From Metabacillus niabensis (GTDB lineage: Bacteria > Bacillota > Bacilli > Bacillales > Bacillaceae): 53,583 bases of DNA. Below the pieces are notes generated by a model. The model was not told where the DNA came from. It did not search any database and saw only the letters and a list, made by a program, of their open reading frames with translations. Position numbers and translations under genes: made by a program. The stretch's first letter is position 1; each line of letters starts with the position of its first letter. Shown piece by piece: positions 1 to 15,858 of the stretch. Location: assembly GCF_902829255.1 (NCBI RefSeq), contig NZ_CADEPK010000051.1, forward strand, positions 1 through 53,583, read 5' to 3'.

Positions 1-63
1 ATTGTTGGTAATATATAAGTACAAATATGAATGAGTAAATATTGTAACAGGGCTGGTGACTTA

Positions 64-828
64 ATGATTAAGGAAACTCGAATTAATAAGATTGAAGAGT
101 ATATAAAAGAAAATAAATCAGTATCCTTGGATGAATTAATGGAGGTATTTAGCGTTTCGAAAAACACAATCCGCCGAGATGTTCAGGAGCTGGTTGAAAG
201 AGGTGATTTTAAAAAGGTCTATGGGGGTGTTGCGGTAAATGATGATAGATCAGCAAAATTAGAATCCTTCCAAGATAGACAAGTCCGCAACAAAAAAGAG
301 AAGGAACTGATAGCAAAAGTAGCGGCTCAATTTATAGATGATGGGGATATTATTTTTGTTGACTCGGGAACGACAACAATTGAGCTTATTGAATTTATTA
401 AAAATAAAAGCGTAACGATCTTAACGAATAGCTTGAATTTTATCGTACATGCCATACCATATGAAAATTTAAATGTTATTTCAACAGGTGGGATTCTTGA
501 AAGAAAAACAAATTCCTTTGGGAGCATTAAATATATTGATTTGCTAAATGCGTATAATATAAAGAAGGCATTTATGGCTTCTACAGGAATCTCATTAACA
601 AATGGAGTAACAAATGCATCCCCATTTGAAAGCGAGCTCAAAACAGCTGTTGTGAATAGAAGCTTGGAAACATATTTGTTAATTGATCATGACAAATTTG
701 ATAAATATGGGCTCATGACTTACTGTACTTTGGATAAAATTAATTTTCTTATTACAGATGCAAAGCCGGAGCAAATTTACTTAGATTATCTTAGAAATCA
801 TAACATTAAGCTTATTATCCCAGATTAA
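64..828 (+). CDS. iolR: DeoR-family transcriptional repressor IolR
   Basis: Represses inositol catabolic genes; in B. subtilis the inducer is the pathway intermediate 2-deoxy-5-keto-gluconate 6-phosphate. The N-terminal 55 residues form a DeoR helix-turn-helix (VSKNTIRRDVQEL), followed by the sugar-phosphate-binding DeoRC domain with the typical DSGTTT segment. I start at the ATG at 64 (254 aa, IolR-like length, MIKETRINKI) because GGTGA lies just before it; the ATG at 31 has no ribosome site. TTGTTGGTAAT at 3-13 resembles the IolR half-sites found elsewhere in the window, so autoregulation is likely. The identification rests on family features plus the adjacent iol genes. Confidence 0.88.
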   Translation: MIKETRINKIEEYIKENKSVSLDELMEVFSVSKNTIRRDVQELVERGDFKKVYGGVAVNDDRSAKLESFQDRQVRNKKEKELIAKVAAQFIDDGDIIFVDSGTTTIELIEFIKNKSVTILTNSLNFIVHAIPYENLNVISTGGILERKTNSFGSIKYIDLLNAYNIKKAFMASTGISLTNGVTNASPFESELKTAVVNRSLETYLLIDHDKFDKYGLMTYCTLDKINFLITDAKPEQIYLDYLRNHNIKLIIPD

Positions 829-972: not shown

Positions 973-1836
973 TTATAGTCGAAGTCCTTCTTTTATCGAT
1001 TTCAAAGTTATTTCATTTGACCACTCAGGTTTATCTGGATAAGCGAAAACAGCATTAGTGACAATTCCATCAAACTTGATTTCTCTTAGCTTGCTATACA
1101 AAGCATCAAAATTGATTTCACCTTCACCAGGATTTAAATGTTGGTGGATCGTTACATTAGCTCCTGGTGGATTAACGATATAACGCAATCCAAATGCAGC
1201 TTTATGATTCATCGTATCAGCAATTAAAACATGTGCTAGCAAATCACCTGCTTCATCTATATGCTTTGCTACATCACCAATCCCATCATCATAGAAAAAG
1301 GCATGTGGTACGGAATAGACGAGCTTAATCCAATCTTTGTCAAGCGCACGAATCATCCTAATTGCTTCGATATTCAATTCAATAAAATCATTTGGATGTG
1401 ATTGAATATTTAGCTTAATCCCTTCCTTTTCAAAAACCGGAAAAAGCTCATCCATTGATTTTAAGAAGGCAGCTTCACTTTCGACTGGACGGCTTTTGTC
1501 TCCACTGAACTCAGTATTCATTAAGTCTACTTCTAACTCAGAAGTAATTTCAATACAGCGTTTCCAATTTTTCACGGCTGCTTGGCGTTCGGTTTCATCT
1601 GGCGAGGACCATTGCTGAACAGGGAGCACTGAAGAAATCTTAACACCAGCATCTGCACAATATCTTTTTAAATCTTTGATAAGCTGTTTATCAACTTTAG
1701 GATATTCATAAAACCAAATAAAATCTTTTCGTGGTGATAATTCTACCCATTCATATCCTAATCGAGCAACTGCATCAATCGTATCTTTTAAATTCGTATT
1801 ATCACGATAATGTGATGGATCGTACGCTAATCGCAT
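973..1836 (-). CDS. iolH: IolH-type sugar-phosphate isomerase/epimerase (TIM barrel)
   Basis: A 287-residue TIM-barrel protein of the xylose-isomerase-like (AP_endonuc_2) family. It opens with [12 protein letters not shown] and contains [16 protein letters not shown] and [10 protein letters not shown], which I recognise from B. subtilis IolH; that recognition is from memory. IolH is non-essential for inositol use in B. subtilis and its reaction is unproven. The ATG at 1836 is preceded by GAAGGAAGTG. It is a one-gene unit behind its own cre/IolR promoter, separated from iolI by about 250 bp. It could instead be an uncharacterised epimerase acting on an inositol-derived ketose. Confidence 0.68.
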
Positions 1837-1897
1837 TAGATTTTCACTTCCTTCTTATAAATATAGTTTCATATAATCTTATAAACAAAATGTAATG

Positions 1898-1919
1898 TAT
1901 TGATTAACTTTTGGTGATA
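1898..1919 (-). promoter_or_regulatory. Tandem 11-bp IolR-type operator (iolH)
   Basis: Two 11-bp direct repeats, TATTGATTAAC and TTTTGGTGATA, lie from about +5 to +26 of the predicted iolH transcript. They match the repeat form and spacing seen upstream of iolE and iolA. Assignment to IolR is by context and by resemblance to B. subtilis IolR sites (CCAA-rich tandem repeats on the other strand). Confidence 0.65.
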
Positions 1920-1930
1920 TGTATGCCTCG

Positions 1931-1959
1931 ATCATAATATCAAAAACGCTTACAGTCAA
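1931..1959 (-). promoter_or_regulatory. Sigma-A promoter of iolH with cre-like site in spacer
   Basis: On the minus strand: -35 TTGACT (1954-1959), 17-bp spacer, -10 TATGAT (1931-1936). The spacer carries TGTAAGCGTTTTTG (1941-1954), a CcpA cre-like sequence. The leader to the iolH start is about 90 nt. Confidence 0.75.
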
Positions 1960-2089
1960 TATTTTCTGAAAAATCCAATTAGAAAAGCAGTTTAATAGAT
2001 TTTAAATATTATTAATACGAGCTAAACAATAGAATGACCAAGAAGAATATAAAGGAAAACTCTTTTTGAGTTACCCATACTTTTAGTAT

Positions 2090-2947
2090 TTATCGGCTTA
2101 TTCCAACTGATCCAATCTCAAAATATTTTGAAACGACATTAAGGGTTGTTTCTTTTGCTTTTTTAATCGTTTCTTCAGCTTCTAATTGATAATATTCAGG
2201 ACGGAATAATTCGATTGATACAACATCTGAAAAGCCTATTTCTTTCAATGTTGATAATATGCCATCTAAATCGATAGCACCTTGCCCTGGCCATAAACGA
2301 TCCTCATCTGTTAAAAAGCCAATAGGGAAATCCTCAGTATCATCAATATGCAAAATAAAGATTTTCGAGGAATCTGCCTTTTTTAAATCCTCTATATTTG
2401 AACCCATTGCATGGAAATGGAAACAATCAAGAACAAGACCTACGTTATCGCGATTTACCGCTTCTACAATCTCATATGCTTGAGCAAATGTATTAACTGT
2501 ACATTTTGGGTGTCCGACAAATTCTAAAGCAATTTTTATTCCATACGGCTCTGCTAAGCTTGATAATTCAGTAAGAACCTCTAGACAGCTGGTTTTTATA
2601 TCCTCTTTAAGAATTTTCTCTTCGGTAACTAGTGGAACCGCAACTATATATTTAATACCTATTTTCTTACCTAATTCCAACATCTCAGTAAATTGTGAAA
2701 TAATTTCCTTATATCCCTCTTCATCGCGATTATTAAAAAATACAAGGGCATTAAGCGCTAATGGCTTTATGTGATGGGTTTGAAAGTAAGTTACTAACTC
2801 TTCAATAGAATGCTCCTCTAAATATTCAGGTAATTTATCCATTGAGCGAATTTCAATAAAATCGTATCCATGTTTTTCGCAATATTCTAGGTCTTTTATA
2901 AGGTTGGAATTTTCTAAAGTAGTCGCTTGATTAAAGCATAATTTCAT
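2090..2947 (-). CDS. iolI: Inosose isomerase IolI
   Basis: Interconverts 2-keto-myo-inositol and 1-keto-D-chiro-inositol, letting D-chiro-inositol enter the pathway. The TIM-barrel protein closely matches B. subtilis IolI (for example NNRDEEGYKEII, EFVGHPKCTVNTF, DDTEDFPIGFLTDEDR). The four metal-ligand positions of the IolI fold are present: Glu142, Asp174, His200 and Glu246. I chose the ATG at 2947 (285 aa) because GGGG lies 9 nt upstream and the protein then begins MKLCFNQATT as in IolI; a longer frame to 2968 adds seven unlikely residues. About nine extra residues extend the C terminus. It is the last gene of iolE-T-G-I. Confidence 0.92.
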   Translation of the reverse strand: MKLCFNQATTLENSNLIKDLEYCEKHGYDFIEIRSMDKLPEYLEEHSIEELVTYFQTHHIKPLALNALVFFNNRDEEGYKEIISQFTEMLELGKKIGIKYIVAVPLVTEEKILKEDIKTSCLEVLTELSSLAEPYGIKIALEFVGHPKCTVNTFAQAYEIVEAVNRDNVGLVLDCFHFHAMGSNIEDLKKADSSKIFILHIDDTEDFPIGFLTDEDRLWPGQGAIDLDGILSTLKEIGFSDVVSIELFRPEYYQLEAEETIKKAKETTLNVVSKYFEIGSVGISR

Positions 2948-3008
2948 CTCAATCATCCCCAATTCCATTTTTTCTCATAACTGCTTTCCGTTTTTTAATC
3001 CTCATTTA

Positions 3009-4112
<1,104 letters not shown>

Positions 4113-4118
4113 TTACTA

Positions 4119-5567
4119 TTATAAGTTAGGATTTTCCACCTGTTCATTAACAGCTGGTTTAAGCTTATTCGATTTGTAAGTTCTAAAGTATTGTTCGAGC
4201 TGTTCAAGCGATTTTCCTTTTGTCTCTGGTAAACATTTAAATACAAATGTAATAGCACCAATACCAAATACTGCAAAAATAAAGAATGTTGTGGAAAGAC
4301 CAACTGCATTAAGTAGGATAGGAAATGAAAACCCCACGAGAAAGTTTGTAATCCAAAGACAGAAAACCGTAACTCCCATTCCTATCCCTCTTAACCTTAA
4401 TGGGAAAATTTCAGATAACATTAGCCATGTAACAGGTGAGATTGCTCCTTGTTGAAATGTAAGGAATGTAACGGTCAAACTTAATACGACAATAGGAAGT
4501 ATTGCCGAACCATTTAATACAAATGAGAATACTCCTATAAGTGTTAATGCTATAGTAGTCCCAATCAAGCCTACAATAAGCATTGGACGCCTTCCAACCT
4601 TGCCTAGTAACCAAATACCAACAAAAGTAGCTAAAACTGAAATGACCCCATTTGCAATATTCGCTATTAAGGCAGCATCTGTTGAAAAACCTGACTCTTG
4701 TAAAATTTGCGTACCGTAATACATTATCGAGTTAACACCAGTTATTTGCTGAACAATCGCAATTCCGATACCAATCAACAAAATTCTTCGGACCCACGAT
4801 ATATTTAAATCTTTAAAGGTTGCTTGAGAAATATTTGATTCCTGTGCAAGATTATCTTGAATTTCTTTAAGCTCAGATTCCGCCTTATCCGCCTGACGAA
4901 TTTGTTGAAGAACGCGAAGTGCCTCACCAATTTTCCCCTTTGATGCGAGCCAACGGGGACTTTCTGGAACAATTCTCATTCCAAACCATAATAAAACAGC
5001 AGGTAATGAAGCAATTACAAGCATCCAACGCCAAACATTAGCAGATTCTTGACCAATTGTATTACCAAGAATTGCATTAAACGTAAATGCTAACAATTGA
5101 CCGGTAACAATCATTAGCTCATTTTGGGTAACCATTCTCCCCCGATTCTCAGCTGGTGACATTTCCGCTAAAAAGGCTGGGACCATAACTGACGCCGCTC
5201 CAACAGCTAACCCTAGTAAAAAGCGACATATAATCATTACTGTTGCTGTAGGTGAAATTGCACAACCTATCGTAGCGAAGAAAAATAGTAACGCAAGATT
5301 AAGAATCATTTTACGGCGACCAAATCTATCTGATAATCTTCCACCAAAAACTGCTCCAAATGCTGCTCCAAAAAGCAATGAACTTGTAACAAGTCCTTCT
5401 ATTACAGGTGTAAGATTCAGTTCATCTGGCCGTGCCATAAAAGGTAATGCACCATTAATTACACCTGTATCATATCCAAAAAGTAATCCTCCGAATGTTG
5501 ATATAATCGTTATTTTACGTAATGCCCTTTTTTGTTCTCCTTTATTAACTCCGATTTGATTATTCAT
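4119..5567 (-). CDS. iolT: Major myo-inositol transporter IolT (MFS, sugar porter)
   Basis: Proton-coupled inositol importer of the sugar-porter branch of the major facilitator superfamily, 482 aa with about 12 membrane helices. Signatures include GGLLFGYDTGVINGA near residue 26, the RFGRR loop between helices 2 and 3, PESPRWL in the central loop, and PETKG near the C terminus. It reads as a close match to B. subtilis IolT (for example VPAFLAEMSP, FPLRLRG). In B. subtilis iolT lies outside the iol operon; here it sits between iolE and iolG, so uptake is co-expressed with the first two enzymes. GGGGG and AGG precede the ATG. Confidence 0.92.
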   Translation of the reverse strand: MNNQIGVNKGEQKRALRKITIISTFGGLLFGYDTGVINGALPFMARPDELNLTPVIEGLVTSSLLFGAAFGAVFGGRLSDRFGRRKMILNLALLFFFATIGCAISPTATVMIICRFLLGLAVGAASVMVPAFLAEMSPAENRGRMVTQNELMIVTGQLLAFTFNAILGNTIGQESANVWRWMLVIASLPAVLLWFGMRIVPESPRWLASKGKIGEALRVLQQIRQADKAESELKEIQDNLAQESNISQATFKDLNISWVRRILLIGIGIAIVQQITGVNSIMYYGTQILQESGFSTDAALIANIANGVISVLATFVGIWLLGKVGRRPMLIVGLIGTTIALTLIGVFSFVLNGSAILPIVVLSLTVTFLTFQQGAISPVTWLMLSEIFPLRLRGIGMGVTVFCLWITNFLVGFSFPILLNAVGLSTTFFIFAVFGIGAITFVFKCLPETKGKSLEQLEQYFRTYKSNKLKPAVNEQVENPNL

Positions 5568-5594
5568 TCCTTTATCCCCCCAAGGAGCACTTTA

Positions 5595-6509
5595 TTAATT
5601 ACTCATTAATGCATTGTTCTTGATGCTCATTAACTTTTCATCAATATATCCCCGGGCCATTAAAGCATACTCTAAAGGATGTGCGATCTGTGGGTCTTGT
5701 TCAGCTTCAACGACAATCCAGCCATGATAATTTGAATTTATTAGCTTTTTATATACCTTTGTAAAATCAATACATCCATCTCCAGGTACAGTAAACATTC
5801 CAGCCAAAAAGGATTGTTGAAATGATTTCCCAATTTTTTCACATTGTTCTTTTACATTTTGACGAACATCTTTGAAATGGACGTGCTTGATCCGTGTAAT
5901 ATGCTTATCAAGTATTGCTAAATAATCACCATCAGATACAAAAATATGACCAGTATCATACAATAAATGCACATACTGTGAATCGGTATTTTCCATTAGT
6001 CTATCAACCTCTTCTTTTGTCTGGATTCCTGTTCCCATATGATGGTGATAAACTAATTTTAAATCATACTGATTTGCAATTTTCCCTAATTCATTTAAGC
6101 CCTCACATAGACGTTCCCATTCTTCATCAGTAAAACAAGGCTTGTTGGCAAACACATTCTGCACTGTCCCTTGAACACTGTATGTTTGCTCTGATACAAC
6201 CGCAACATTTGCATGAACCTCTTTTAAATACTGACAATGCTCATGGAACAATTGAGACACACTTACTAAACCGTCTCGAATAATAAAACTACTAAACCAT
6301 TTCCCGGCAATTTTTAAGTTTCGAAGCTTTAATTCCTTGTTAAGAACTTTAGGTTCAGGAAAAAAACCACCAACTTCTGTTCCTTCAAAACCAGCAACTA
6401 CAATGTCACTCAATAAATGTGAAAGTGTATTTCCTGCACCGATTTCTGGGATATCATCATTTCTCCAGCCAATTGGAGCAATTCCCCATGTAATCCTCTG
6501 TTTACTCAA
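5595..6509 (-). CDS. iolE: Inosose dehydratase IolE (TTG start)
   Basis: Dehydrates 2-keto-myo-inositol to 3D-(3,5/4)-trihydroxycyclohexane-1,2-dione. The sequence matches IolE throughout ([63 protein letters not shown]) and belongs to the xylose-isomerase-like TIM barrels. I place the start at the TTG at 6509 (304 aa): GGGGGAGG lies 5 nt upstream and the protein then aligns with the B. subtilis N terminus. The ATG at 6569 would add 20 residues absent from the family and has no ribosome site. First gene of iolE-T-G-I. Confidence 0.92.
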
Positions 6510-6683
6510 TGCAACCTCCCCCTTCGATTTAGTATAAGTGCTTTCAAATTGCGGAATTATTTTTTTCAAAGTTTGAGATAAGTAGCATCTTATGTAATAA
6601 GCTTTTAATCTATTTTTCCTTTCGTTATTTTTTTCAATACCTCCATTCCTATTTTAGTTTAATATAGTTAACATTTTATTAGT

Positions 6684-6705
6684 TGTTGGTTAACTATTGG
6701 TTATC
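6684..6705 (-). promoter_or_regulatory. Tandem 11-bp IolR-type operator (iolE)
   Basis: TGTTGGTTAAC (6684-6694) and TATTGGTTATC (6695-6705) are adjacent 11-bp repeats covering about +3 to +24 of the iolE transcript. A further AGTTAAC element ends at 6672, two 11-bp periods away, so the array may be longer. Confidence 0.72.
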
Positions 6706-6714
6706 TATGTGTAA

Positions 6715-6743
6715 ATAATAATATTAAAAACGCTTTCAGTCAA
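6715..6743 (-). promoter_or_regulatory. Sigma-A promoter of iolE-T-G-I with cre-like site
   Basis: Minus strand: TTGACT (6738-6743), 17 bp, TATTAT (6715-6720). The spacer carries TGAAAGCGTTTTTA (6725-6738), a near-consensus cre for CcpA. The leader to the iolE TTG start is about 200 nt. Together with the terminator below, this fills most of the gap between iolE and the MFS gene. Confidence 0.78.
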
Positions 6744-6847
6744 TTATTTTTTTGAAATTCGTTCAAAAAAATTACTCAACTTTTACTCAACAAGCACCAT
6801 TGCAATTCTCAATTCTTCATCAAACTAGATTATTTCTTGCATGTAAA

Positions 6848-6881
6848 ACAAAAAACTATTCTCCACGTTCAGAGAATAGTT
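6848..6881 (-). terminator. Strong terminator of the iolA unit
   Basis: AACTATTCTC (6854-6863) and GAGAATAGTT (6872-6881) form a perfect 10-bp stem, followed on the minus strand by TTTTTTG. It lies 9 nt after the MFS gene stop. Confidence 0.9.
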
Positions 6882-6889
6882 ATATTCCA

Positions 6890-8095
6890 TCAGCTTTTTG
6901 ATTCTGTTCGTGAGGATATGAACTCTTTTGAATAGACCATCCGCTTGCTTGGACTCCATTGCCAAACTAAATACGTGGCGATCAAGCCTAAACATCCGAC
7001 AAAGTAAAACCCTACTTTCATACTAAATAGCGAATTGACAATTCCAGTACATAACGGCCCTAAACAAATACCAATTGCATATATTGCCTGATAAGCACCC
7101 ATTGCGGTAGCTCTCTTTTCTTTCGCAATTTTTTCAATTGCTAGCCCTAGTAATAGCGGAAAAATAATTCCAAGGAAAAATCCTTTTACCCCCTGAACAA
7201 CTAGAAATATCCCCTTCGATTCGATAAACGGGATGATGAACGTTGTAGGTGCTGCATAAAGAAATGCCAGCTGTAATGCCCGCCATTCTCCTATCCGAGG
7301 AATAAGAATTCTCCCCATAAAAAGCGTGGCAATAGCATGTGGAATCATAAATACGATGACATTCCAGGTTATTTCACTTGTACTAAATCCAATTGACAAC
7401 GCATAATTAGAAGTAAATCCAAACACTGTAGAAAAAATCATACTATGTGCCAATATTGAAAGCACTGAAACTTTCAACAAAGAAGGCTCTTTAATAATAG
7501 CAATAGCATCCTTTAAACTGAATGCTTCCATAGTTATGGCATTTTTATATTCTGTAATGAAAAAGGAAAGTATCATACCGACTAAACTAAATATGCTACC
7601 AATTATAAAAGGCGCCCTCCAGCCCCATTCATCTACAAGATATCCACTAAAGCTCATTCCTAATAATTGAGCGAGCACAACTATAAATGAAATCGTCCCC
7701 ATCGCTTTATGAACGTGTTTATCGTCATAAAAGGTTGGAAATAAGACGGTAAACACTACCCAAGAGGAAGCTGATAATCCTGCTAAAGAACGCGCTAAAA
7801 AGATCATCCAAAGATTTTCAGTAAGAAGATAAATTAGACAACTAAGAAAGCTCGAAAACATTCCAAAAATAATAAAAGGCTTTCTATATTTCACAAGGTC
7901 TGATATGATTCCAATCGGCAGTCTGCACAAAAGTTGTAATAATCCATAGCTGCTTAGTACGATTCCAATAAAGGAATATTGCCCTCCAATTGATTCCATA
8001 TAAGGTGATAAAATAGGAACATAAATAAAATGAGGAAACCATAATAAAAAAGAGATGATGATAAATAAGTATTTAGTCGATTGTTTTCTTTCCAA
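6890..8095 (-). CDS. MFS transporter at the end of the iol operon
   Basis: About 401 residues with around 12 predicted membrane helices, from the major facilitator superfamily (drug:H+ antiporter-like; RLPIGIISDLVKYRKP in the helix 2-3 loop). I propose the TTG at 8095 as start (GGAAGTG about 8 nt upstream); the frame is open to a TTG at 8116. It occupies the position where B. subtilis has the minor inositol transporter gene iolF, but I cannot match it to IolF, so no symbol is given. It lies between a terminator after iolJ and a stronger one after itself, with no clear promoter of its own, so expression probably depends on read-through. Substrate unknown; inositol isomer uptake or efflux of an intermediate are both possible. 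Confidence 0.75.
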   Translation of the reverse strand: MERKQSTKYLFIIISFLLWFPHFIYVPILSPYMESIGGQYSFIGIVLSSYGLLQLLCRLPIGIISDLVKYRKPFIIFGMFSSFLSCLIYLLTENLWMIFLARSLAGLSASSWVVFTVLFPTFYDDKHVHKAMGTISFIVVLAQLLGMSFSGYLVDEWGWRAPFIIGSIFSLVGMILSFFITEYKNAITMEAFSLKDAIAIIKEPSLLKVSVLSILAHSMIFSTVFGFTSNYALSIGFSTSEITWNVIVFMIPHAIATLFMGRILIPRIGEWRALQLAFLYAAPTTFIIPFIESKGIFLVVQGVKGFFLGIIFPLLLGLAIEKIAKEKRATAMGAYQAIYAIGICLGPLCTGIVNSLFSMKVGFYFVGCLGLIATYLVWQWSPSKRMVYSKEFISSRTESKS

Positions 8096-8125
8096 CCTGT
8101 CATCACTTCCAATCAAGATGCATAC

Positions 8126-8163
8126 AAAAAAAGAGAGTGAATGCCTTAATCGCTAACACCCTC
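8126..8163 (-). terminator. Terminator between iolJ and the MFS gene
   Basis: On the minus strand GAGGGTG pairs with CACTCTC (one G-U pair) and runs into TTTTTTT, starting about 8 nt after the iolJ stop. It should separate, at least partly, the iolA-J messages from the MFS gene. Confidence 0.68.
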
Positions 8164-8170
8164 ATCTAGT

Positions 8171-9040
8171 TTATGCTTTATGATTTGATCCAAATTCCCT
8201 AATCTTAGCTTTAACCGTTTCCTTTACTGCTTCTTTTCCATGTATCATAATTGAACGAGCATCATATATGTCTTGATCATTTTCTAAAACATTTCGTATA
8301 GCCGCAGTCCACGCCTGTAAGCATTCTGTATTTACATTTATTTTGGCATGACCAAGCTCGATTGTTTTTTGGATTTGGTAAAGAGGAATTCCCGATCCAC
8401 CGTGCAGTACTAAAGGTATATTGATTAAATCAGCTATTTCCTTCATTTCTGCAAAGCCTAATTTTGGTTCACCTTGGTATGGTCCATGGACGGATCCAAG
8501 CGCCGCTGCTAACGCGTCTATTCCTGTTTCTTCAACAATCCGGCTACAATGAACCGGATCAGCATATTGAATTCCACCGATCATTCCATCCTCATTTCCG
8601 CCAACTGTACCAACCTCTGCTTCAACAGATACTCCACGAGGTCTTGCATATTCAACGACTTCCTTTGTCATAGCAATATTTTCTTCTATTGAAAAGTGCG
8701 AGCCATCAATCATAACAGATGTATAACCAGCATCAATTGCTTCCTTACATCTTTCTACACTTGTACCATGATCCAGATGCAAGGCAACTGGAACTGTAAT
8801 CCCTTTATTCTCTACAAGTTGACGAACAACGGTAGAAATAAGATGAAATCCACCTAAATAGTCTACAAGTCTATCAGATGATGCAACAATAACAGGTGCC
8901 TGCTCTTCCTGTGCCGCTTCTAATATAGCCTCCACCCATTGGAAGCTATTCATATTAAATTGACCGATCGCATACTTTCCTTCTCTTGCTTTAGTGAGCA
9001 TCTTTTTCATTGATACTAGCTTCGTAGATGTTGTTAACAT
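8171..9040 (-). CDS. iolJ: 6-Phospho-5-dehydro-2-deoxy-D-gluconate aldolase IolJ
   Basis: Class II aldolase that cleaves 2-deoxy-5-keto-D-gluconate 6-phosphate to dihydroxyacetone phosphate and malonic semialdehyde. The 289-aa protein has the class II fructose-bisphosphate-aldolase fold: Asp90 and zinc ligand His91 (HLDHG), the VEAEVG acidic segment at 139-144, zinc ligands His185 (SVHG) and His213 (LHGGSG), and NVNTE for phosphate binding. Position within iolABCD-J and resemblance to B. subtilis IolJ (GQFNMN, DRLVDYLGG) separate it from a glycolytic or tagatose aldolase. Confidence 0.9.
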   Translation of the reverse strand: MLTTSTKLVSMKKMLTKAREGKYAIGQFNMNSFQWVEAILEAAQEEQAPVIVASSDRLVDYLGGFHLISTVVRQLVENKGITVPVALHLDHGTSVERCKEAIDAGYTSVMIDGSHFSIEENIAMTKEVVEYARPRGVSVEAEVGTVGGNEDGMIGGIQYADPVHCSRIVEETGIDALAAALGSVHGPYQGEPKLGFAEMKEIADLINIPLVLHGGSGIPLYQIQKTIELGHAKINVNTECLQAWTAAIRNVLENDQDIYDARSIMIHGKEAVKETVKAKIREFGSNHKA

Positions 9041-9067
9041 GTAAATTCATCACCTCGCTTTTCTCAT

Positions 9068-10978
9068 TTAATATTGCTTTGCAGTTTGTAGCATTTTCTT
9101 TCTACTATCATTCGCCTTTTGAATGCTTTCCTTTTGAGAAACTTCTGCAACCCCAACATTCCACCAGCTTTCATAGCCGTCAGTCATTGTTTTTGGTAGC
9201 ACTTTAATATCAATTAATGTTGATACACTTTGCTTTTTAGCATCCTCAAGGGCTGCCTTCAATTCTTGAACTGTATGAACCTTATAAGTTTTTGCACCAT
9301 ACCCTTCTGCAACCTTTGCATAATCAATATTCATTATTTTATTGTCATGTGTTCTAAATTCACAGAAGTAGCTTCCACCACCGTGATCCATTTGGAGATT
9401 ATTAATACATCCAAACCCTGAATTATCAAAAAGGACTACATTAATTTTGTAGTTATATTGAATAGCAGTTATTAGCTCAGAGTGCAGCATGAGAAAGCTT
9501 CCATCACCAACAAGTGAATATACCTCTTTATCAGGCTCCGCCAATTTAATTCCTAGTGCACCCGATACCTCATATCCCATACAGGAATATCCATACTCAA
9601 CATTATACGTATTAGGAACAGTCGGATTCCAAATACGTTGAACATCACCAGGTAGCGATCCTGCTGCGGTAATGATTGTACTGTCTGGTGCAATGACATC
9701 ATTAACTGTGATTAATGCAGTCGTTTGCGCCAATTCAGTATTTAACTGATCTGCATATTCATTCAATATTTCTTGTGAAAAGTGATTTTTTACCTCAGGC
9801 TCAAACCCTTCACGTTTAAATTGAATGTTGCTTAGACGCTCTCTTTCAGCTGTCCACTCTTCTTTCAATTCAAAAATGGTTGACCCGAATTCACTTACAT
9901 ACCCCTCTAATAATGGTGCCAATTGTTCCAAGGTCACCTTGGCATCTGCAACTACTTGGAACGCATCCAGCTTATAGGCATGAAGACGGCTAACGTTTAT
10001 ATTTAAAAATTTCGCATTGTCAAAATTAAAGGCCGTTTTAGAAGAGGTTGCAAAATCTGTATATCTTGTTCCAATTCCAATAATTAAATCAGCTTGACGG
10101 GCAGCCTTATTTGCTGCTAACGTACCAGTAATTCCCAAACCACCTAGATTATTTTTAAACGTACTTTCGACCGTTGCTTTACCAGCTTGTGTTTCAACTA
10201 ATGGGATGTGATGTTTTTCAGATAAAGAGACTAATATATCACGAGCCTGTGAATATTTAGCTCCTCCCCCAACAAGAATAACAGGTCTTTTACTGTCCTT
10301 AATTAATTTTGCTGCCCCTTCTAACTCACGTTTAACAGGTTCTTTACGGTCTAAATAATGCACCCTTTTTTCAAAGAACCTTTCATCATAATCAAATGCC
10401 TCTCCTTCAACATCCTGAGCAATACAGATGGTCGCTGGACCTGCCTTCCCCGGATCTGTCATTACTTCAAAGGCGCGAATTAAGCTTGACATTAACTGCT
10501 CGGGGCGAGTAATACGATCCCAGTAGCGAGAAACCGGCTTTAATGCATCATTTGTTGTGACAGCTAAACTATATTCATGCTCTACTTGCTGTAATACTGG
10601 ATCTGGCTGTCTTGTGGCAAACGTATCTCCAGGTAAAAGCAAAACTGGTATATTATTAGCTAATGCTGTTCCTGCGGCTGCAGCTAGATTTGCTGAGCCT
10701 GGTCCAACAGAGGTTGTAACAGCATAGATTTTTTGTCGAAGCATTTGTTTACTATAAGCAATTGCTGCATGTGCCATTCCTTGTTCATTTTTACCTTGAA
10801 TGACTTTTAAATGACCTGCATCTTGTTCAAGCGCTTGCCCAATCCCTAATACATTTCCATGGCCAAACACATTAAAAACACCTTCAACAAAAGGGAATTC
10901 CTCTCCATCTACATTAATATACTGCTGATTTAAAAATTTGATTAAAGCTTGTGATGTGGTTAATCTAATTTTCCCCAT
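9068..10978 (-). CDS. iolD: 3D-(3,5/4)-trihydroxycyclohexane-1,2-dione hydrolase IolD
   Basis: Thiamine-diphosphate enzyme that opens the ring of the diketone made by IolE to give 5-deoxy-glucuronate. At 636 aa it is the normal family length. N-terminal pyrimidine-binding domain with VEGVFNVFGHGN (glutamate near 32), central domain, and C-terminal cofactor-binding domain with GDG at 491-493 and DNS at 518-520. The PTVPNTYNVEYGYSCMGYE segment is typical of IolD rather than acetolactate synthase. The ATG at 10978 follows AGAGGTG; iolC lies 13 bp upstream, so the genes are cotranscribed. Confidence 0.93.
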   Translation of the reverse strand: MGKIRLTTSQALIKFLNQQYINVDGEEFPFVEGVFNVFGHGNVLGIGQALEQDAGHLKVIQGKNEQGMAHAAIAYSKQMLRQKIYAVTTSVGPGSANLAAAAGTALANNIPVLLLPGDTFATRQPDPVLQQVEHEYSLAVTTNDALKPVSRYWDRITRPEQLMSSLIRAFEVMTDPGKAGPATICIAQDVEGEAFDYDERFFEKRVHYLDRKEPVKRELEGAAKLIKDSKRPVILVGGGAKYSQARDILVSLSEKHHIPLVETQAGKATVESTFKNNLGGLGITGTLAANKAARQADLIIGIGTRYTDFATSSKTAFNFDNAKFLNINVSRLHAYKLDAFQVVADAKVTLEQLAPLLEGYVSEFGSTIFELKEEWTAERERLSNIQFKREGFEPEVKNHFSQEILNEYADQLNTELAQTTALITVNDVIAPDSTIITAAGSLPGDVQRIWNPTVPNTYNVEYGYSCMGYEVSGALGIKLAEPDKEVYSLVGDGSFLMLHSELITAIQYNYKINVVLFDNSGFGCINNLQMDHGGGSYFCEFRTHDNKIMNIDYAKVAEGYGAKTYKVHTVQELKAALEDAKKQSVSTLIDIKVLPKTMTDGYESWWNVGVAEVSQKESIQKANDSRKKMLQTAKQY

Positions 10979-10991
10979 ACCCTTTCACCTC

Positions 10992-11987
10992 TTACTTATT
11001 TTGGTAAACTGCTTCCCTCTCTGCTATTAGCTGTTCAATTTCTTTCACTGTAGGCATCGCCTCAGATGAGCTATGCTTACTAACGACAATTGCAGCAGAA
11101 GCACTGCCATATTTCAATGCAGTATCAATATCCATTCCATTTATCAGTGCATATAGAAAAGCAGAGGCATATGAGTCACCCGCACCAAATGTTTTTAATA
11201 CCTTAGTTAAATATGCTTTACCTTTGAATATTTCTCCTGTTTTCGCATATGCATAAGACCCCTCAACACCATGTTTGATCACAATTAGCTTTGGAGAATG
11301 CTTAAATAACTCATGAATTGTTGCTTCATTACTTCCATTTTCACGATTTTCCAGCACATCAAATTCGTCTCGAGTACCAATTACAACATCTGATTGCTGA
11401 GCAACAAGTGTATAATAGATAGAAGTTTCTAATTGAGATTCCCACGTATAACCGCGATAGTCCAATTCAAAAAATACTTGAACATCATTTTTCTTTGCAA
11501 GATGAACAGCCTTCAGTACAGCCTCACGAGAAGGACTTTTCGCTAAGGCTGTGCCTGATACAAGAAGCACCTTTGCCTTTCTTATATACTCCTCACTTAC
11601 TTCAGAGGGATTTAAATAAAGATCTGCCACTTCATCTCGATACATTAAAATGCTGCATTCCTCAGGGCTTTTAATTTCCGTGAAAGCTAAGCCTGTTTTA
11701 TGTCCATCATTATCTATAGGCATTTGTGATGTATCAACACCGACTTCCGCCATGTAATTTTTTATAAATCGGCCGTGCTGATCATCTGCTAGCTTCCCAA
11801 TAAATCCTGTCTTCAAGCCTAATTTTGATGCACCAATTGCGATATTTGCCGGAGAACCGCCAACATATTTTTTGAACGTCATCGTTTCTTCCATCGGTCT
11901 GTTATACTCCACTGCATTTAAATCGATACATGCTCTACCGATTGCAATCATATCGAACTCAGCTTTAGGATTAAACTCCAATTTCAA
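10992..11987 (-). CDS. iolC: 5-Dehydro-2-deoxygluconokinase IolC (TTG start)
   Basis: PfkB-family kinase that phosphorylates 2-deoxy-5-keto-gluconate at O-6. The product also serves as IolR inducer in B. subtilis. The N-terminal GRACIDLNAVEYNRPMEET and GGSPANIAIG motifs and the C-terminal FGAGDSYAS motif with the catalytic aspartate are intact. I place the start at the TTG at 11987 (331 aa): GGGAG sits 9 nt upstream and the product aligns residue for residue with the B. subtilis N terminus. The ATG at 11996 abuts the GGGAG and is too close to it. Confidence 0.93.
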   Translation of the reverse strand: MKLEFNPKAEFDMIAIGRACIDLNAVEYNRPMEETMTFKKYVGGSPANIAIGASKLGLKTGFIGKLADDQHGRFIKNYMAEVGVDTSQMPIDNDGHKTGLAFTEIKSPEECSILMYRDEVADLYLNPSEVSEEYIRKAKVLLVSGTALAKSPSREAVLKAVHLAKKNDVQVFFELDYRGYTWESQLETSIYYTLVAQQSDVVIGTRDEFDVLENRENGSNEATIHELFKHSPKLIVIKHGVEGSYAYAKTGEIFKGKAYLTKVLKTFGAGDSYASAFLYALINGMDIDTALKYGSASAAIVVSKHSSSEAMPTVKEIEQLIAEREAVYQNK

Positions 11988-12009
11988 AATGAACATCTCC
12001 CTTACCTTT

Positions 12010-12828
12010 TTATTTTCTCTCTAAGATCCATTCATGCGCACGTTCGTTATGGAATTTCCAAATACGTTTAGGACCGGCCATAATATTTAAGTAATAAGAA
12101 TCATAGCCGTCAGGAACAGCAACTGGATGATATCCTTTCGGCACTATGACAACATCTCCGTTTTCCACTGCCATTGTTTCATCTAATGTGCGATCATCTG
12201 TATAAACGCGCTGAAAGACAAAGCCTTGCTTTGGATTCATCTCATGATAATACGTCTCTTCTAAGAAAGATTCATATGGCAGGTTATTCTGATCATGTTT
12301 ATGTGGTGGATAGCTAGACCAATTGCCACTATCAGTGAATACTTCAACAACGAGCAAGCTATTAGCAGCAGGATTTGAATCAGGTAAAATATTATGAACT
12401 AATCGTTTATTGCTATATTTTCCGCGATATTCAATTTGATTATCTTCTGCTTTAATTAGCTTTGTCGGCAATTGCTGTTGTGATGGAGAATAACAGAGAA
12501 CTACTCTTGCCTGACTATTCGCTTCAATTTGAAATTGCTGATTATTTGAAACATACACACTATCAGTTGGCTTCTTCTCAAATACACACTCTCTTGTCCC
12601 GATATTTTCAAACGTTACTTGTTGATCAGAAACAGTAATTTTACCAGTTAAAGCAACAATACAACATTCTACCTTGTCTAAATCTTCTGTATATGTAGCA
12701 CCAGGATTCAAATCAATGACCTTCATTCCAACGAACTCCAATAATGAACTATCTGTCATGACATCATGTATGAGTGTTACACCTGGCGATATTTCAACTG
12801 CTTTTGGTTTTCGGAGTAATTTACTCAT
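12010..12828 (-). CDS. iolB: 5-Deoxy-glucuronate isomerase IolB
   Basis: Converts 5-deoxy-glucuronate to 2-deoxy-5-keto-gluconate. A 272-aa bicupin: the C-terminal cupin carries SYPPHKHDQ (metal-binding histidines) followed by EETYYHEMNPKQGFVFQRVY, both typical of IolB/KduI-like isomerases. AGGAG precedes the ATG by about 10 nt. It follows iolA after an 89-bp gap that holds a long hairpin, and lies 22 bp before iolC. Confidence 0.92.
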   Translation of the reverse strand: MSKLLRKPKAVEISPGVTLIHDVMTDSSLLEFVGMKVIDLNPGATYTEDLDKVECCIVALTGKITVSDQQVTFENIGTRECVFEKKPTDSVYVSNNQQFQIEANSQARVVLCYSPSQQQLPTKLIKAEDNQIEYRGKYSNKRLVHNILPDSNPAANSLLVVEVFTDSGNWSSYPPHKHDQNNLPYESFLEETYYHEMNPKQGFVFQRVYTDDRTLDETMAVENGDVVIVPKGYHPVAVPDGYDSYYLNIMAGPKRIWKFHNERAHEWILERK

Positions 12829-12867
12829 TGTATGTGCGCTCCTTTTGTTTAAGTTAAAATGAGAATT

Positions 12868-12903
12868 GCTATTATCCTATAAAACTCCTATAGAGATAAT
12901 AGC
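12868..12903 (-). other. Long hairpin between iolA and iolB
   Basis: GCTATTATC+CTATA (12868-12881) pairs with TATAG+GATAATAGC (12889-12903) through 14 bp with a single bulged A and a 7-nt loop. It starts 14 nt after the iolA stop. No T-run follows directly, so partial termination or an mRNA processing/stability element is more likely than a full terminator. Confidence 0.65.
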
Positions 12904-12917
12904 GGAGGGTTTTCATT

Positions 12918-14393
12918 TCATTCAAAAGTTGGTGCTTTATAGTTAGCTGTTACTACCTTTTTACGCGTATAGAAATCAACACTATCCTTACCATTTGCAT
13001 GTAAAGTACCATAGAAGGACGATTTCCAGCCAGAGAATGGGAAGAATGCCATTGGTGCCGGTACACCTAAGTTTACTCCCAACATACCTGCATCAATATT
13101 TTCACGGAAGTAACGGATGGAAGAAGCATTTGATGTATAAATGCAAGCACCATTTGCAAATTCTGATTTATTTGTTATTTCAACTGCCTCTTTTAAATTT
13201 TTCACACGTATAATTGATAAAACTGGTGCAAAAATTTCGTCCTTCCAAATGCTCATATCTGTTGTTACCTCATCAAAAATTGTTGGTCCAACAAAATACC
13301 CTTCCTCAGGTACAGACTGACGACCATCACATACTAATTTAGCACCTTCATTAATTCCTTTTTGAATATATTCTAAAGTTCGTTGTTTATTTTGCTCGCG
13401 AATAACTGGACCTAAAAATACACCTTCATCAAGTCCATTCCCAATTTGTACTTCTTTTGTTTTCTCTATTAATCTTTGTAAAAACGCATCTGCAATATCA
13501 TCTTCAACAGCTACAACAGAGCAAGCCATACAGCGCTCACCTGCTGAACCAAATGCTGAAGCAATCACATTTGTCGTTGCATGCTCTAAATCAGCATCCT
13601 GTAAAACGATTGAGTGGTTCTTTGCCCCAGTTAACGCTTGAACACGTTTTAAATTTGCACTTCCTCGTTTATATACATACTCACCAACTGGCTGTGAGCC
13701 TACAAATGAAATCGCCTTTACCTCTGGATGATCCAATAGACCATTTACAACATCATGTGCACCATGTACCATATTGAATACACCTTTTGGAAGACCAGCT
13801 TCTTCTAATAGCTCTGCTAATTTTTCAGCTAGCATAGGAGTTCTTTCAGATGGTTTAAGAACAAATGTATTTCCTACCGCAATCGCCATTGGGAACATCC
13901 AGCAAGGTACCATCATCGGAAAGTTAAAAGGTGTAATACCTCCAACAACTCCAATTGGATAACGGTAATTCGTAATCTCAACATCTGTTGCAATTGTAGT
14001 TAAGGAATCCCCCATCATGAGAGTAGGTGCTCCTGTAGCAAATTCTACATTCTCAATTCCGCGTCCAACCTCACCTAATGCTTCCGTAAGGTTTTTACCA
14101 TTTTCAAGTGTAATAATTCGAGCTAGCTCCTTTTTATTATTTTGCAAAAGCTGTTGGAAGTTAAATAAAACTCTAGCCCGTTTTTGAACTGGAACATTTC
14201 GCCATTCCTTAAATGCCTTTGCAGCAACTTCTACCGCATAATCAACTTCTTCTTTTGTTGAAATAGGCACTTGAGCAATTATTTCATTTGTAGCAGGATT
14301 GTAAACATCTTCATATTGAGTCGTTTTACTTTCTACCCAATCACCATTTATAAAGTTTTTTAGCTTTTTAACCCTCGTGATTACTTCAGACAT
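12918..14393 (-). CDS. iolA: (Methyl)malonate-semialdehyde dehydrogenase, CoA-acylating (IolA/MmsA)
   Basis: Last step of the pathway: malonic semialdehyde plus CoA and NAD+ gives acetyl-CoA, CO2 and NADH. It can also act on methylmalonate semialdehyde from valine. The protein is 491 aa with the aldehyde-dehydrogenase fold: [16 protein letters not shown] at 148-163, GSQPVG (232-237) where hydrolytic relatives have GSTxxG, and the nucleophile Cys288 in GERCMA. Retention of CMA after the arginine marks the MmsA subgroup. AGGAGG lies 8 nt before the ATG. First gene of the iolABCDJ unit, behind a leader of about 290 nt. Confidence 0.93.
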
Positions 14394-14469
14394 TTCAACT
14401 TCCTCCTTAGCGATTTCCCCTAAAGTAGGGCCATTTTTATAACATTGTTGCTATTTAAGTAGTTGTGGC

Positions 14470-14540
14470 AAGCAGTAAAGTCAACCTTCACATTGGTGCT
14501 GCTCGTTTTCTGTGGAGCATGCAGTTCACTCCTACTGCTT
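14470..14540. repeat. Imperfect hairpin/dispersed-repeat remnant in the iolA leader
   Basis: AAGCAGTA (14470-14477) and TACTGCTT (14533-14540) bracket a 55-nt interior with the GCTCGTTTTCTGTGGAG and TTCACTCC wording of a common intergenic repeat of Bacillaceae. It lies inside the predicted untranslated leader of iolA. Matching to the repeat family is from memory and the copy is degenerate. Confidence 0.4.
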
Positions 14541-14660
14541 CGATTAATTTGAAATAGTTTTCCTTTATTAAATTTGTACTAGAGAAGAGCATGAGTGAAG
14601 GTCCTATTGCCGCCTGTAAATCTAGCGATAACCTTATGTCATTATTTATAGATTATTATA

Positions 14661-14682
14661 TTTTGGTTATCTTTTGGTTATG
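14661..14682 (-). promoter_or_regulatory. Tandem 11-bp IolR-type operator (iolA)
   Basis: TTTTGGTTATC (14661-14671) and TTTTGGTTATG (14672-14682) are adjacent repeats identical at 10 of 11 positions, lying at about +3 to +24 of the iolA transcript. This is the cleanest copy of the operator in the window. Confidence 0.78.
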
Positions 14683-14691
14683 TCTGACTCT

Positions 14692-14720
14692 ATCTTAATA
14701 CTAAAAACGCTTTCAGTCAA
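14692..14720 (-). promoter_or_regulatory. Sigma-A promoter of iolABCDJ with cre-like site
   Basis: Minus strand: TTGACT (14715-14720), 17-bp spacer, TAAGAT (14692-14697). The spacer holds the same TGAAAGCGTTTTTA (14702-14715) as in the iolE promoter, so CcpA would block both by occupying the promoter. Confidence 0.78.
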
Positions 14721-15283
14721 TTATTTTTCTATGTTTTTTATATTTTCATGGGTAATTCTTGAGAATTATCTTATGTTCATTATTACTAGCTCAATTAATA
14801 TGCATGTATACATACTTATAGACGTTTCTGTAATACTTTGTTGTTGATTTCAGCAAGAGGCACGCCCTTGGTGGTTCTTAAGCTTAGTTTATTAACGTCT
14901 GGAAGGTTTCCCTTTGCCATAATTATCTAAGCAGGAGCCTCATGCATCTGTTCAAATTTAAACAGTGATATCCTTATAGAAAAAGAGGAAGGTAATTTAT
15001 TAAAATGTAAGATTAGTAGGCTACTATATAAATGGTTTAAAGGTACAATGAATTGGGATATTTCAGAAAAAGGAAAGGTCTGCTCTGATTATTCCAGTAC
15101 AGACCTTATAGAAGTATTAAAAAATGGTTTTAAATCCTTTTCATAAAGTTTAGCTATCAATATATCTGTTTGAGGTGGCAAAAGTCATATTAGATTATTT
15201 TTAGATGTGTCTTATATAAAATGAAAAATTGTTCTTTCTATAAAACATGGAAATATCTCACCATAACAATCAATATAGGGTTA
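14721..15283. other. Long region without a convincing gene
   Basis: About 560 bp between the iolA promoter and the tautomerase stop. It contains TTGTTGTTGATTTC at about 14840, the opening words of a dispersed Bacillus repeat. It also holds a minus-strand 34-codon frame (14816-14920) without a good ribosome site, a plus-strand open stretch ending at about 15146 without a start codon, and an 8-bp inverted repeat AAGGTCTG/CAGACCTT (15075-15107). It looks like decayed sequence; I cannot name what it came from. Confidence 0.4.
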
Positions 15284-15673
15284 CTATAGCTGTCCTAATA
15301 AAAATTGTGCTTCACCAAATCCAAAGCTCCAGTCTGCTGCTCCATTTGTTACGATCGATATCATAATATTATTAGATGTTATCCCACAGCTTTTCTCTAG
15401 CTCTTCAGCAACTAATTGATAGAACTCCTTCTTTTGTTTCGTGCTTCTTTCAGTACTTGTTACGCTAATCACAACAACATCCTTGCTTCTTTCAAAACCT
15501 AAGCCTGTGTCTTGGATGATTAGTTCATTTGCTGGATGCTGGCTAACAATTTGGTAACGATCTCTTTCAGGTACGTCAAATGCTTTTACAACAGCTCGGT
15601 GAATCGCATCCAATAATTCTTTTAGAGACCTTTCATCACGGCCCTCTACTACATCAACTCTTATCAACGGCAT
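15284..15673 (-). CDS. Tautomerase family protein (catalytic Pro1)
   Basis: A 129-aa member of the 4-oxalocrotonate tautomerase superfamily, larger than the roughly 60-residue classic form. It begins [13 protein letters not shown], so removal of Met exposes the catalytic amino-terminal proline. The start at 15673 is set by that proline and by GGGGG 7 nt upstream. Such enzymes interconvert keto and enol acids; the substrate here is unknown. Its promoter is overlapped by a tandem IolR-type site, which suggests a role linked to inositol or a keto intermediate, an inference only. It is a single-gene unit. Confidence 0.82.
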
Positions 15674-15703
15674 TTTAAAACCCCCTAACAAAATGATAAA
15701 GTA

Positions 15704-15734
15704 ATTATAATATCTTGGTTAACTTTTGGCAATA
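15704..15734 (-). promoter_or_regulatory. Promoter of the tautomerase gene overlapped by IolR-type repeats
   Basis: Minus strand: TTGCCA (15727-15732), 17 bp, TATAAT (15704-15709). The 11-bp repeats TCTTGGTTAAC (15713-15723) and TTTTGGCAATA (15724-15734) cover the -35 and spacer. Their form equals the iolA, iolE and iolH operators, but here they sit upstream of, not after, the start point, and no cre is present. Confidence 0.65.
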
Positions 15735-15758
15735 TTTTTGTTTTTATTCCATAAACAA

Positions 15759-15837
15759 AACGCTTGGTTATTTGAACCGCACCTCCAATTGTTAGATATT
15801 CTCCAACAATTGGCTGCAGTTCAATTATCCAAGCGTC
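15759..15837 (-). terminator. Long two-tier hairpin after fadE
   Basis: Outer arms starting ACGCTTGG (15760) and ending CCAAGCGT (15836) pair over about 22 bp with three mismatches. Inside, CCAATTGTT/AACAATTGG pair around an 11-nt loop. On the minus strand the structure ends in GCGTTTTGTTT, so it can terminate the fadN-A-E message just ahead of the tautomerase promoter. The length is unusual for a simple terminator. Confidence 0.65.
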
Positions 15838-15858
15838 TTTGCTTAAGTCTCTTGTTAT

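Follow-up and report, generated by a model that had tools for sequence, protein, structure and literature searches.

Beside an inositol cluster in the window (the whole 53,583-bp stretch of DNA analyzed here) lies a gene for a protein of the tautomerase superfamily, and its position raises two questions: is the gene controlled by IolR, and what would its enzyme contribute to inositol breakdown? One answer strikes us as quite probable from sequence comparison, namely that this is an MSAD-type (malonate semialdehyde decarboxylase) gene, IolK-like and orthologous to YodA, which belongs to the IolR regulon, is repressed by IolR, and decarboxylates malonic semialdehyde alongside IolA. An initial annotation of the locus appears, as far as sequence can tell, to have been right about IolR; its idea of the enzyme should, in our view, be replaced by malonic semialdehyde decarboxylation.

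The gene and its surroundings

The inositol cluster comprises iolR (by context), two xylose-isomerase-like genes (at 973 and 2090), iolG, a transporter gene, iolE, an MFS gene, iolJ, iolD, iolC, iolB, and iolA. Labels for iolA, iolB, iolC, iolE, and iolG come from NCBIfam models above cut-off, and those for iolJ, iolD, and the transporter from Pfam together with context. Past iolA come the gene studied here (15284-15673, minus strand; Table 1), fadE, and two more minus-strand open reading frames, which are taken as fadA and fadN with gene order as the sole basis. The MSAD-like protein starts at the ATG at 15673, and the TTG at 15691 of the mechanically derived reading frame is not the start; once the methionine is removed, proline is the N-terminal residue.

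Table 1. Positions of the MSAD-like gene, its control region, and related features of the window
Feature	Position	Strand	Basis
DeoR-family regulator, IolR by context	31..828	+	DeoRC 2.8e-44, HTH_DeoR 5.7e-18
Operator before the 287-aa xylose-isomerase-like gene	1896..1917	-	Tandem 11-mers, 11 bp apart
iolE operator	6682..6703	-	Tandem 11-mers, 11 bp apart
Class II aldolase, iolJ by context, would release malonic semialdehyde	8171..9040	-	PF01116 1.1e-99; IolJ role from the available part of PMC13130090
iolA, (methyl)malonate semialdehyde dehydrogenase	12918..14393	-	TIGR01722 8.5e-182, above cut-off
iolA operator	14659..14680	-	Tandem 11-mers, 11 bp apart
129-aa tautomerase-superfamily protein, MSAD group; coding sequence with stop	15284..15673	-	Pfam Tautomerase_2 8.6e-31; PDB MSAD 2aag 4.1e-37; active-site residues
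GGGGG, probable ribosome-binding site, 7 nt before the ATG	15681..15685	-	Sequence; inference
-10 hexamer TATAAT	15704..15709	-	Promoter scan
Tandem 11-mer operator TTGCCAAAAGT-TAACCAAGATA, best-scoring register, predicted IolR site	15711..15732	-	Matrix 17.4; in register with relatives' operators
-35 hexamer TTGCCA, doubling as start of the first operator repeat	15727..15732	-	Promoter scan
Weaker third repeat AAACAAAAATA, same 11-bp phase, ahead of the operator	15733..15743	-	Matrix 9.8 for the pair 15722-15743
Stretch with long hairpin after fadE, probable terminator dividing fad genes from the MSAD-like gene	15745..15858	-	-50.8 kcal/mol, z -8.8

The hairpin after fadE (15745-15858) is absent from the output of a simple terminator scan. 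Read-through from fadE into the MSAD-like gene was rejected because this strong hairpin lies in between. The MSAD-like gene carries a promoter and an operator of its own, and past its coding sequence come 890 bp (14394-15283) and a second operator before iolA; the corresponding gap is about 260-330 bp in loci L014, L015, and L016. A remnant gene or repeat in the gap was also rejected, since nothing beyond short repeats was recognized in the extra DNA. When the gap was searched against its own genome, the only matches were 26 bp on contig C9 and the iolE promoter, whose sequence is similar to that of the iolA promoter. These two promoter regions (6676-6751 for iolE and 14653-14728 for iolA) are 82% identical over 76 bp, operator and cre-like TGAAAGCGTTTTTA included, as if one had been copied from the other.

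Enzyme identity and likely reaction

The best solved relatives of the protein in a PDB search were MSADs (2aag, 4.1e-37; 3mjz, 1.9e-27). Identity amounts to 63/128 residues with the MSAD of Pseudomonas pavonaceae 170 (2aag, 2aal) and 50/127 with the FG41 MSAD, and because of this identity to solved structures the fold is clear enough. Counting the N-terminal proline as residue 1, the window protein keeps Pro1, Asp37, Arg75, Trp114, Phe116, Phe123, and Leu128, and thus all four members of the hydrophobic wall Trp114-Phe116-Phe123-Leu128; M1-P2 and Asp37 are invariant in 38/38 aligned sequences. The Pseudomonas enzyme shares Pro1, Asp37, Arg75, and the wall, but it has Arg73 where the window protein has Thr, and it serves 1,3-dichloropropene breakdown. 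The genome of the window also holds a second, distant tautomerase (G000:C320, L013; 30% identity), which we presume may be of the YusQ type.

Of the Arg73/Arg75 pair that marks the Pseudomonas-type MSAD subgroup, the window protein keeps Arg75 and has Thr at position 73. Across the 68 plain-length rows (out of 81, PpMSAD included), 14 others share this Thr, whereas 35 have Lys, 13 have Ser, and 5 have Arg at the position. The available text of PMC10606566, from which the list of MSAD residues is taken, describes the FG41 enzyme as likewise lacking the Arg pair; IolK, YusQ, YodA, and YrdN are listed there as MSADs that have been studied. Because FG41 lacks the pair, it is not family-defining, and we file the window protein in the MSAD family, outside the Pseudomonas-type subgroup.

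According to excerpts of PMC13130090, IolJ releases malonic semialdehyde and IolA converts it to acetyl-CoA; we therefore regard a decarboxylating side exit beside IolA as the best reading. The enzyme would decarboxylate IolJ-released malonic semialdehyde to acetaldehyde and CO2, an exit free of CoA and NAD, and the benefit could lie in disposal of a reactive aldehyde or in redox balance. Acetaldehyde is given as a product of L. casei BL23 in the accessible part of PMC8355322.

The initial annotation had proposed inosose, the cyclohexane dione, or 5-keto-deoxygluconate as the substrate. This proposal is not supported, since a protein in the MSAD group is likelier to act on malonic semialdehyde than on any of the three. 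In a broader form, the alternative would hold that the gene is an IolR target whose enzyme tautomerizes or isomerizes inosose, cyclohexane dione, 5-deoxyglucuronate, or DKG. The tautomerase families and Pro1 are compatible with such an activity, replacement of Arg73 by Thr, Ser, or Lys in 63/68 rows allows a changed substrate, and most proteins of each tautomerase subgroup are described as uncharacterized in the portion of PMC5818174 available. However, we consider this alternative unlikely given that the closest solved proteins by sequence are MSADs, that Asp37, Arg75, and the Trp114-Phe116-Phe123-Leu128 wall are kept, and that malonic semialdehyde is a product of the inositol pathway.

The further statement that a tautomerase stands outside the textbook pathway fits B. 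subtilis but overlooks L. casei IolK, a known precedent. IolK of Lactobacillus casei BL23 was described by Yebra et al. in 2007 and is reportedly the last gene of one long operon. Like the window gene, it specifies an MSAD-type enzyme in an inositol cluster with iolR and, as far as it is known by description, offers a second exit for malonic semialdehyde; unlike it, the window gene has its own promoter and operator. L. casei IolK is named as an MSAD in the available text of PMC10606566.

A predicted IolR operator on the promoter

The promoter TTGCCA-17-TATAAT spans 15732..15704 with 11/12 matches. As first described, it is covered by tandem 11-mers, which in the best-scoring register (15711-15732) overlap its -35 and spacer; on the plus strand, TCTTGGTTAAC lies at 15713-15723 and TTTTGGCAATA at 15724-15734. 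The repeats are spaced by 11 bp, the same as in the operators of iolA, iolE, and the 287-aa gene, so that the likeness in form to the three iol operators was correctly recognized. Without inositol, IolR would sit on the repeats over the -35 and spacer and block RNA polymerase; during inositol breakdown, the IolC product DKGP would free IolR, and the gene would come on together with the iol operons. Control by cre was rejected for this gene, as no cre was found within 1 mismatch nearby; cre-like sites were found next to the iolE operator (6725) and the iolA operator (14702). Among 82 distinct rows, the window's own included, only 2 have a cre-like site (at most 1 mismatch, 250 bp upstream), consistent with the absence of a cre reported initially.

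How well the site stands out depends on how it is scored. Against WRAYCAADARD, which we took as the IolR operator consensus, the site at 15711-15732 has 19/22 matches and 3 mismatches, a score reached by 4/60 resamplings of the 250-bp upstream region. Consensus sites with at most 2 mismatches number 89 in the same genome against 80 in its reversed control, and the gene's site has 3. A six-genome search at this limit (at most 2 mismatches) returned mostly noise in the window's own genome. Among G025, G022, and G048, the outcome was clearest in G025, where the three perfect 22/22 matches are the promoter of the MSAD-like gene and two sites in the iol divergon; in G048 the MSAD-like gene's site, with 2 mismatches, was among the matches listed, and in G022 no site was found at the MSAD-like gene. 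Because the consensus score is weak, the case for an operator rests on comparison.

We trained a matrix on 11 iol operators, of which three lie in the window and the other eight in iolA-iolR divergons of five Bacillus genomes, a set that holds no operator of an MSAD-like gene. With this matrix, the 15711-15732 site scores 17.4 and is the fourth best 22-mer of the window, after the three iol operators, which are themselves training sites; the next independent site, free of operator overlap, scores 10.5. The score of 17.4 was reached by 0/300 resamplings of the upstream region; these resamplings, like the others used for the consensus score and for the p values of the relatives, keep first-order transition frequencies on average only.

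The comparison drew on 57 loci with a relative and on further genomes, after removal of duplicates and of rows that fell below 44% identity or whose alignment did not begin at residue 1; the cut-offs used throughout (score of at least 16, E<1e-40, at least 60%, at least 75%) were set after seeing the data. Among 79 distinct upstream regions, the window's own included, 31 score at least 16, 35 have p<=0.01, and 30 have a score reached by 0/300 resamplings; many of the 48 without a site of at least 16 lie outside Bacillaceae or inside an operon. In loci L014-L045, such a site was found in 18/29 regions before the MSAD-like gene versus 2/243 before unlabeled reading frames of at least 150 aa, and one of those two is a divergent neighbor in L043 that shares its intergenic region with the gene's relative. 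Across 68 loci (L002-L012, L014-L070; 29 without any site), 96 sites score at least 16, overlapping ones counted apart. All but four (L021, L046, L053, L066) of these, 92/96, fall within 400 bp before iolR, iolT, iolA, iolE, iolG, iolD, the 287-aa gene, or the MSAD-like gene. Because the relatives share ancestry, the counts express conservation and not separate events, and they overstate independence. Column conservation appears to favor the operator only mildly: it is 0.92 versus 0.80 outside in nine rows of the B. subtilis group, a value equaled or exceeded by 25/149 sliding 22-column windows, and 0.86 versus 0.64 outside in nine rows of the window's group (14/104). Upstream of the gene in L017, L018, L019, L021, L024, L026, L027, L028, and L060, two overlapping sites of at least 16 lie 11 bp apart, and the operator in those nine loci is therefore three 11-mers in one phase.

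In the genomes that carry the gene and have no iolD match (G021, G073, and G077), the best sites score 9.1, 2.3, and -7.5 (p 0.05, 0.28, and 0.96), and none is an operator (0/3); G021 has an iolR-like neighbor at 51%. Extra gene copies in G056, G070, and G029 score -2.9, 7.5, and 8.0 and have no operator, and the other copy in G070 (L080) is also without its own site. The pattern is as expected of an IolR regulon member, with the operator present at orthologues (31/79 rows) and absent in 3/3 gene-bearing genomes without iolD. A chance match, or the site of another regulator with expression independent of inositol, could explain a 19/22 consensus score found in 4/60 resamplings and a genome not enriched in sites with at most 2 mismatches; this explanation is nevertheless very improbable in the face of the matrix result, the conservation, the in-register alignment with relatives, the missing operator in genomes without iolD, and a 17-nt stretch in G056 described below.

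The window operator can be aligned in register with its counterparts in N. vireti, C. citreus, and S. globispora, and the window protein forms a supported clade with theirs (100/96, in a tree of few columns). In these three the best-matching promoter (TTGACT-17-TATGAT or TACGAT) is situated further upstream, ahead of the operator. An operator placed over the -35, as the initial annotation had it, is found in the window and in some members of the B. subtilis group, though not in the closest relatives; overall, the best promoter match overlaps the site in 16 of the 31 rows with a site. In the window, the upstream stretch used for the promoter in those relatives is taken up by the fadE hairpin, and the -35 hexamer is created by the very two changes that set the first repeat apart from the common form (TAACCA to TTGCCA). 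One possibility is that, following a rearrangement, the window promoter was formed anew within the operator.

The comparison extends to B. subtilis, where the IolR regulon (iol operon, iolRS, and iolT) has tandem 11-mer operators like that of the window gene; the published descriptions, as far as their text was available, name neither yodA nor the window gene as a member. One gene copy in G056 is flanked by proteins of 112 and 202 aa that we take to be YodB and YodC, and on this basis the copy is taken, by inference, as yodA of B. subtilis 168. Its promoter region carries TAACCAAAAGTTAATCAACATA over TTGATT-17-TATGTT, and what seems to be new here is that this inferred yodA has an iol-type operator on its promoter. 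The 17-nt AACCAAAAGTTAATCAA occurs exactly twice in G056, at the yodA site and in the operator of the iolA-iolR divergon, against about 0.002 occurrences expected in such a genome, an expectation that ignores that the stretch was picked after seeing both sites share 17 nt. It occurs once, at the MSAD-like gene, in four further Bacillus genomes chosen for an alike site, and is absent from G032 and G058 (iolD, no close gene copy) and from G073 and G077 (no iolD). YodA and the window protein have 85/129 identical residues (L082), and their genes have the same kind of operator on the promoter; yodA differs in lying far from the iol genes and in having the operator on the opposite strand.

Published expression data bear on yodA as well. 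In the accessible part of a xylanase study, yodA was down 4.4-fold at 6 h, alongside the iol operon (3.5-7.5), iolT (6.6), and iolR/iolS (3.1-3.6) (PMC10633939). In the available text of PMC11656851, the 6-h log2 values under amylase overproduction are -1.47 for yodA, -1.70 for iolT, and -1.0 to -1.9 for iol operon genes; under xylanase overproduction they are -2.14, -2.70, and -1.8 to -2.9, respectively, and these xylanase values equal those of PMC10633939 and are probably the same data. In the parts available, both papers give yodA as unknown or similar to MSAD and name no regulator. This co-variation is support and not proof, because unrelated genes fall too. Among the papers listed by literature searches, none was seen to describe control of yodA or of a tautomerase by IolR. 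A prediction to this effect may nevertheless have been made before, and excerpts of PMC4670728 mention motif-supported IolR interactions.

On balance, we lean toward the view that bacilli, B. subtilis 168 included, possess a second exit in which an IolR-controlled MSAD (yodA) would make acetaldehyde from part of the malonic semialdehyde. If so, the textbook single exit via IolA and the list of IolR targets would both be incomplete, and yodA and its relatives in many Bacillaceae would gain a likely regulator, substrate, and pathway. It would also add a fate of malonic semialdehyde that is missing from the available portions of B. subtilis pathway descriptions.

Linkage to inositol genes among relatives

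The gene occurs in three arrangements. In Neobacillus, Cytobacillus, Robertmurraya, and similar loci, it is followed by iolA-iolB-iolC-iolD-iolJ, with operators before the gene and before iolA, like the window. In Metabacillus-type and Oceanobacillus loci, iolR precedes the gene in the same direction and the site lies before iolR, so the gene would be read together with iolR; the order in Metabacillus-type loci is iolR-gene-iolB, with no iolA adjoining. The site before iolR is found in 8/10 of the genus loci (L002-L010 and L012), with none in L002 and L007. In Enterococcus ureilyticus, moraviensis, and plantarum, too, the gene comes after iolR, and here a site lies between iolA and iolR. In the B. 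subtilis and licheniformis groups, finally, no iol genes lie near the gene, which has its own operator on the opposite strand.

A neighborhood search, which the initial annotation had proposed as a check on IolR control, found a core iol gene or iolR within the fetched 10 kb in 29/41 Bacillota loci: at least two core iol genes in 23, one in 5, iolR only in 1, and none in 12. Core iol genes were counted at 50% identity or more within the fetched flanks, and loci were assigned to the Bacillota by hand on the basis of their record titles. An operator is present in 6/12 of the loci without an iol neighbor; the other six are L022, L029, L045 (whose upstream region was not scored), L055, L063, and L067. 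Among the 16 other loci, outside the Bacillota list, 1 has a core iol gene near the relative. With operator conservation, this linkage supports well the claim that the gene, through its predicted site, is an IolR target.

The gene and the pathway also tend to occur in the same genomes. Within 21 genomes of the genus, the gene (at least 60% identity) and iolD are found in the same 10, a 28% match in G018 being left uncounted. A hand count of 80 family genomes (gene at E<1e-40, iolD at 75% or more) gave 30 with both, 3 with the gene alone, 7 with iolD alone, and 40 with neither. Hence iolD is present in 30/33 genomes with the gene versus 7/47 without (Fisher 4e-12, ancestry not corrected for), and 7/37 iolD genomes are without the gene. 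At the searches' own thresholds, 35 family genomes have the gene and 45 have iolD.

All gene-bearing genomes of the genus (10/10) also have iolA, and in 8 it lies on the same contig at a distance of 10-12 kb further along. It was likewise found in all 10 iolD-bearing genomes among 12 others checked, which were picked from the 57 loci. As iolA is present in every checked genome with both the gene and iolD, the enzyme would provide a parallel exit and not a replacement, and it fills no gap. A replacement of IolA by the enzyme, with inositol carbon released as acetaldehyde and not as acetyl-CoA, might be suggested by Metabacillus-type loci, where the gene is flanked by iolR and iolB and iolA is not adjacent, but this is extremely improbable and was rejected for the genomes sampled, iolA being present in all those with the gene and iolD.

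Two further features of the loci deserve mention. In G003 (L002, L012), there are two gene copies, one with a changed end, and the iolD matches are in pieces, some with a stop. The genome of the window was placed in one genus with Metabacillus-type genomes, and its gene order and MSAD-like protein group with Neobacillus and Cytobacillus; the inositol cluster (973-15673) may have been exchanged.
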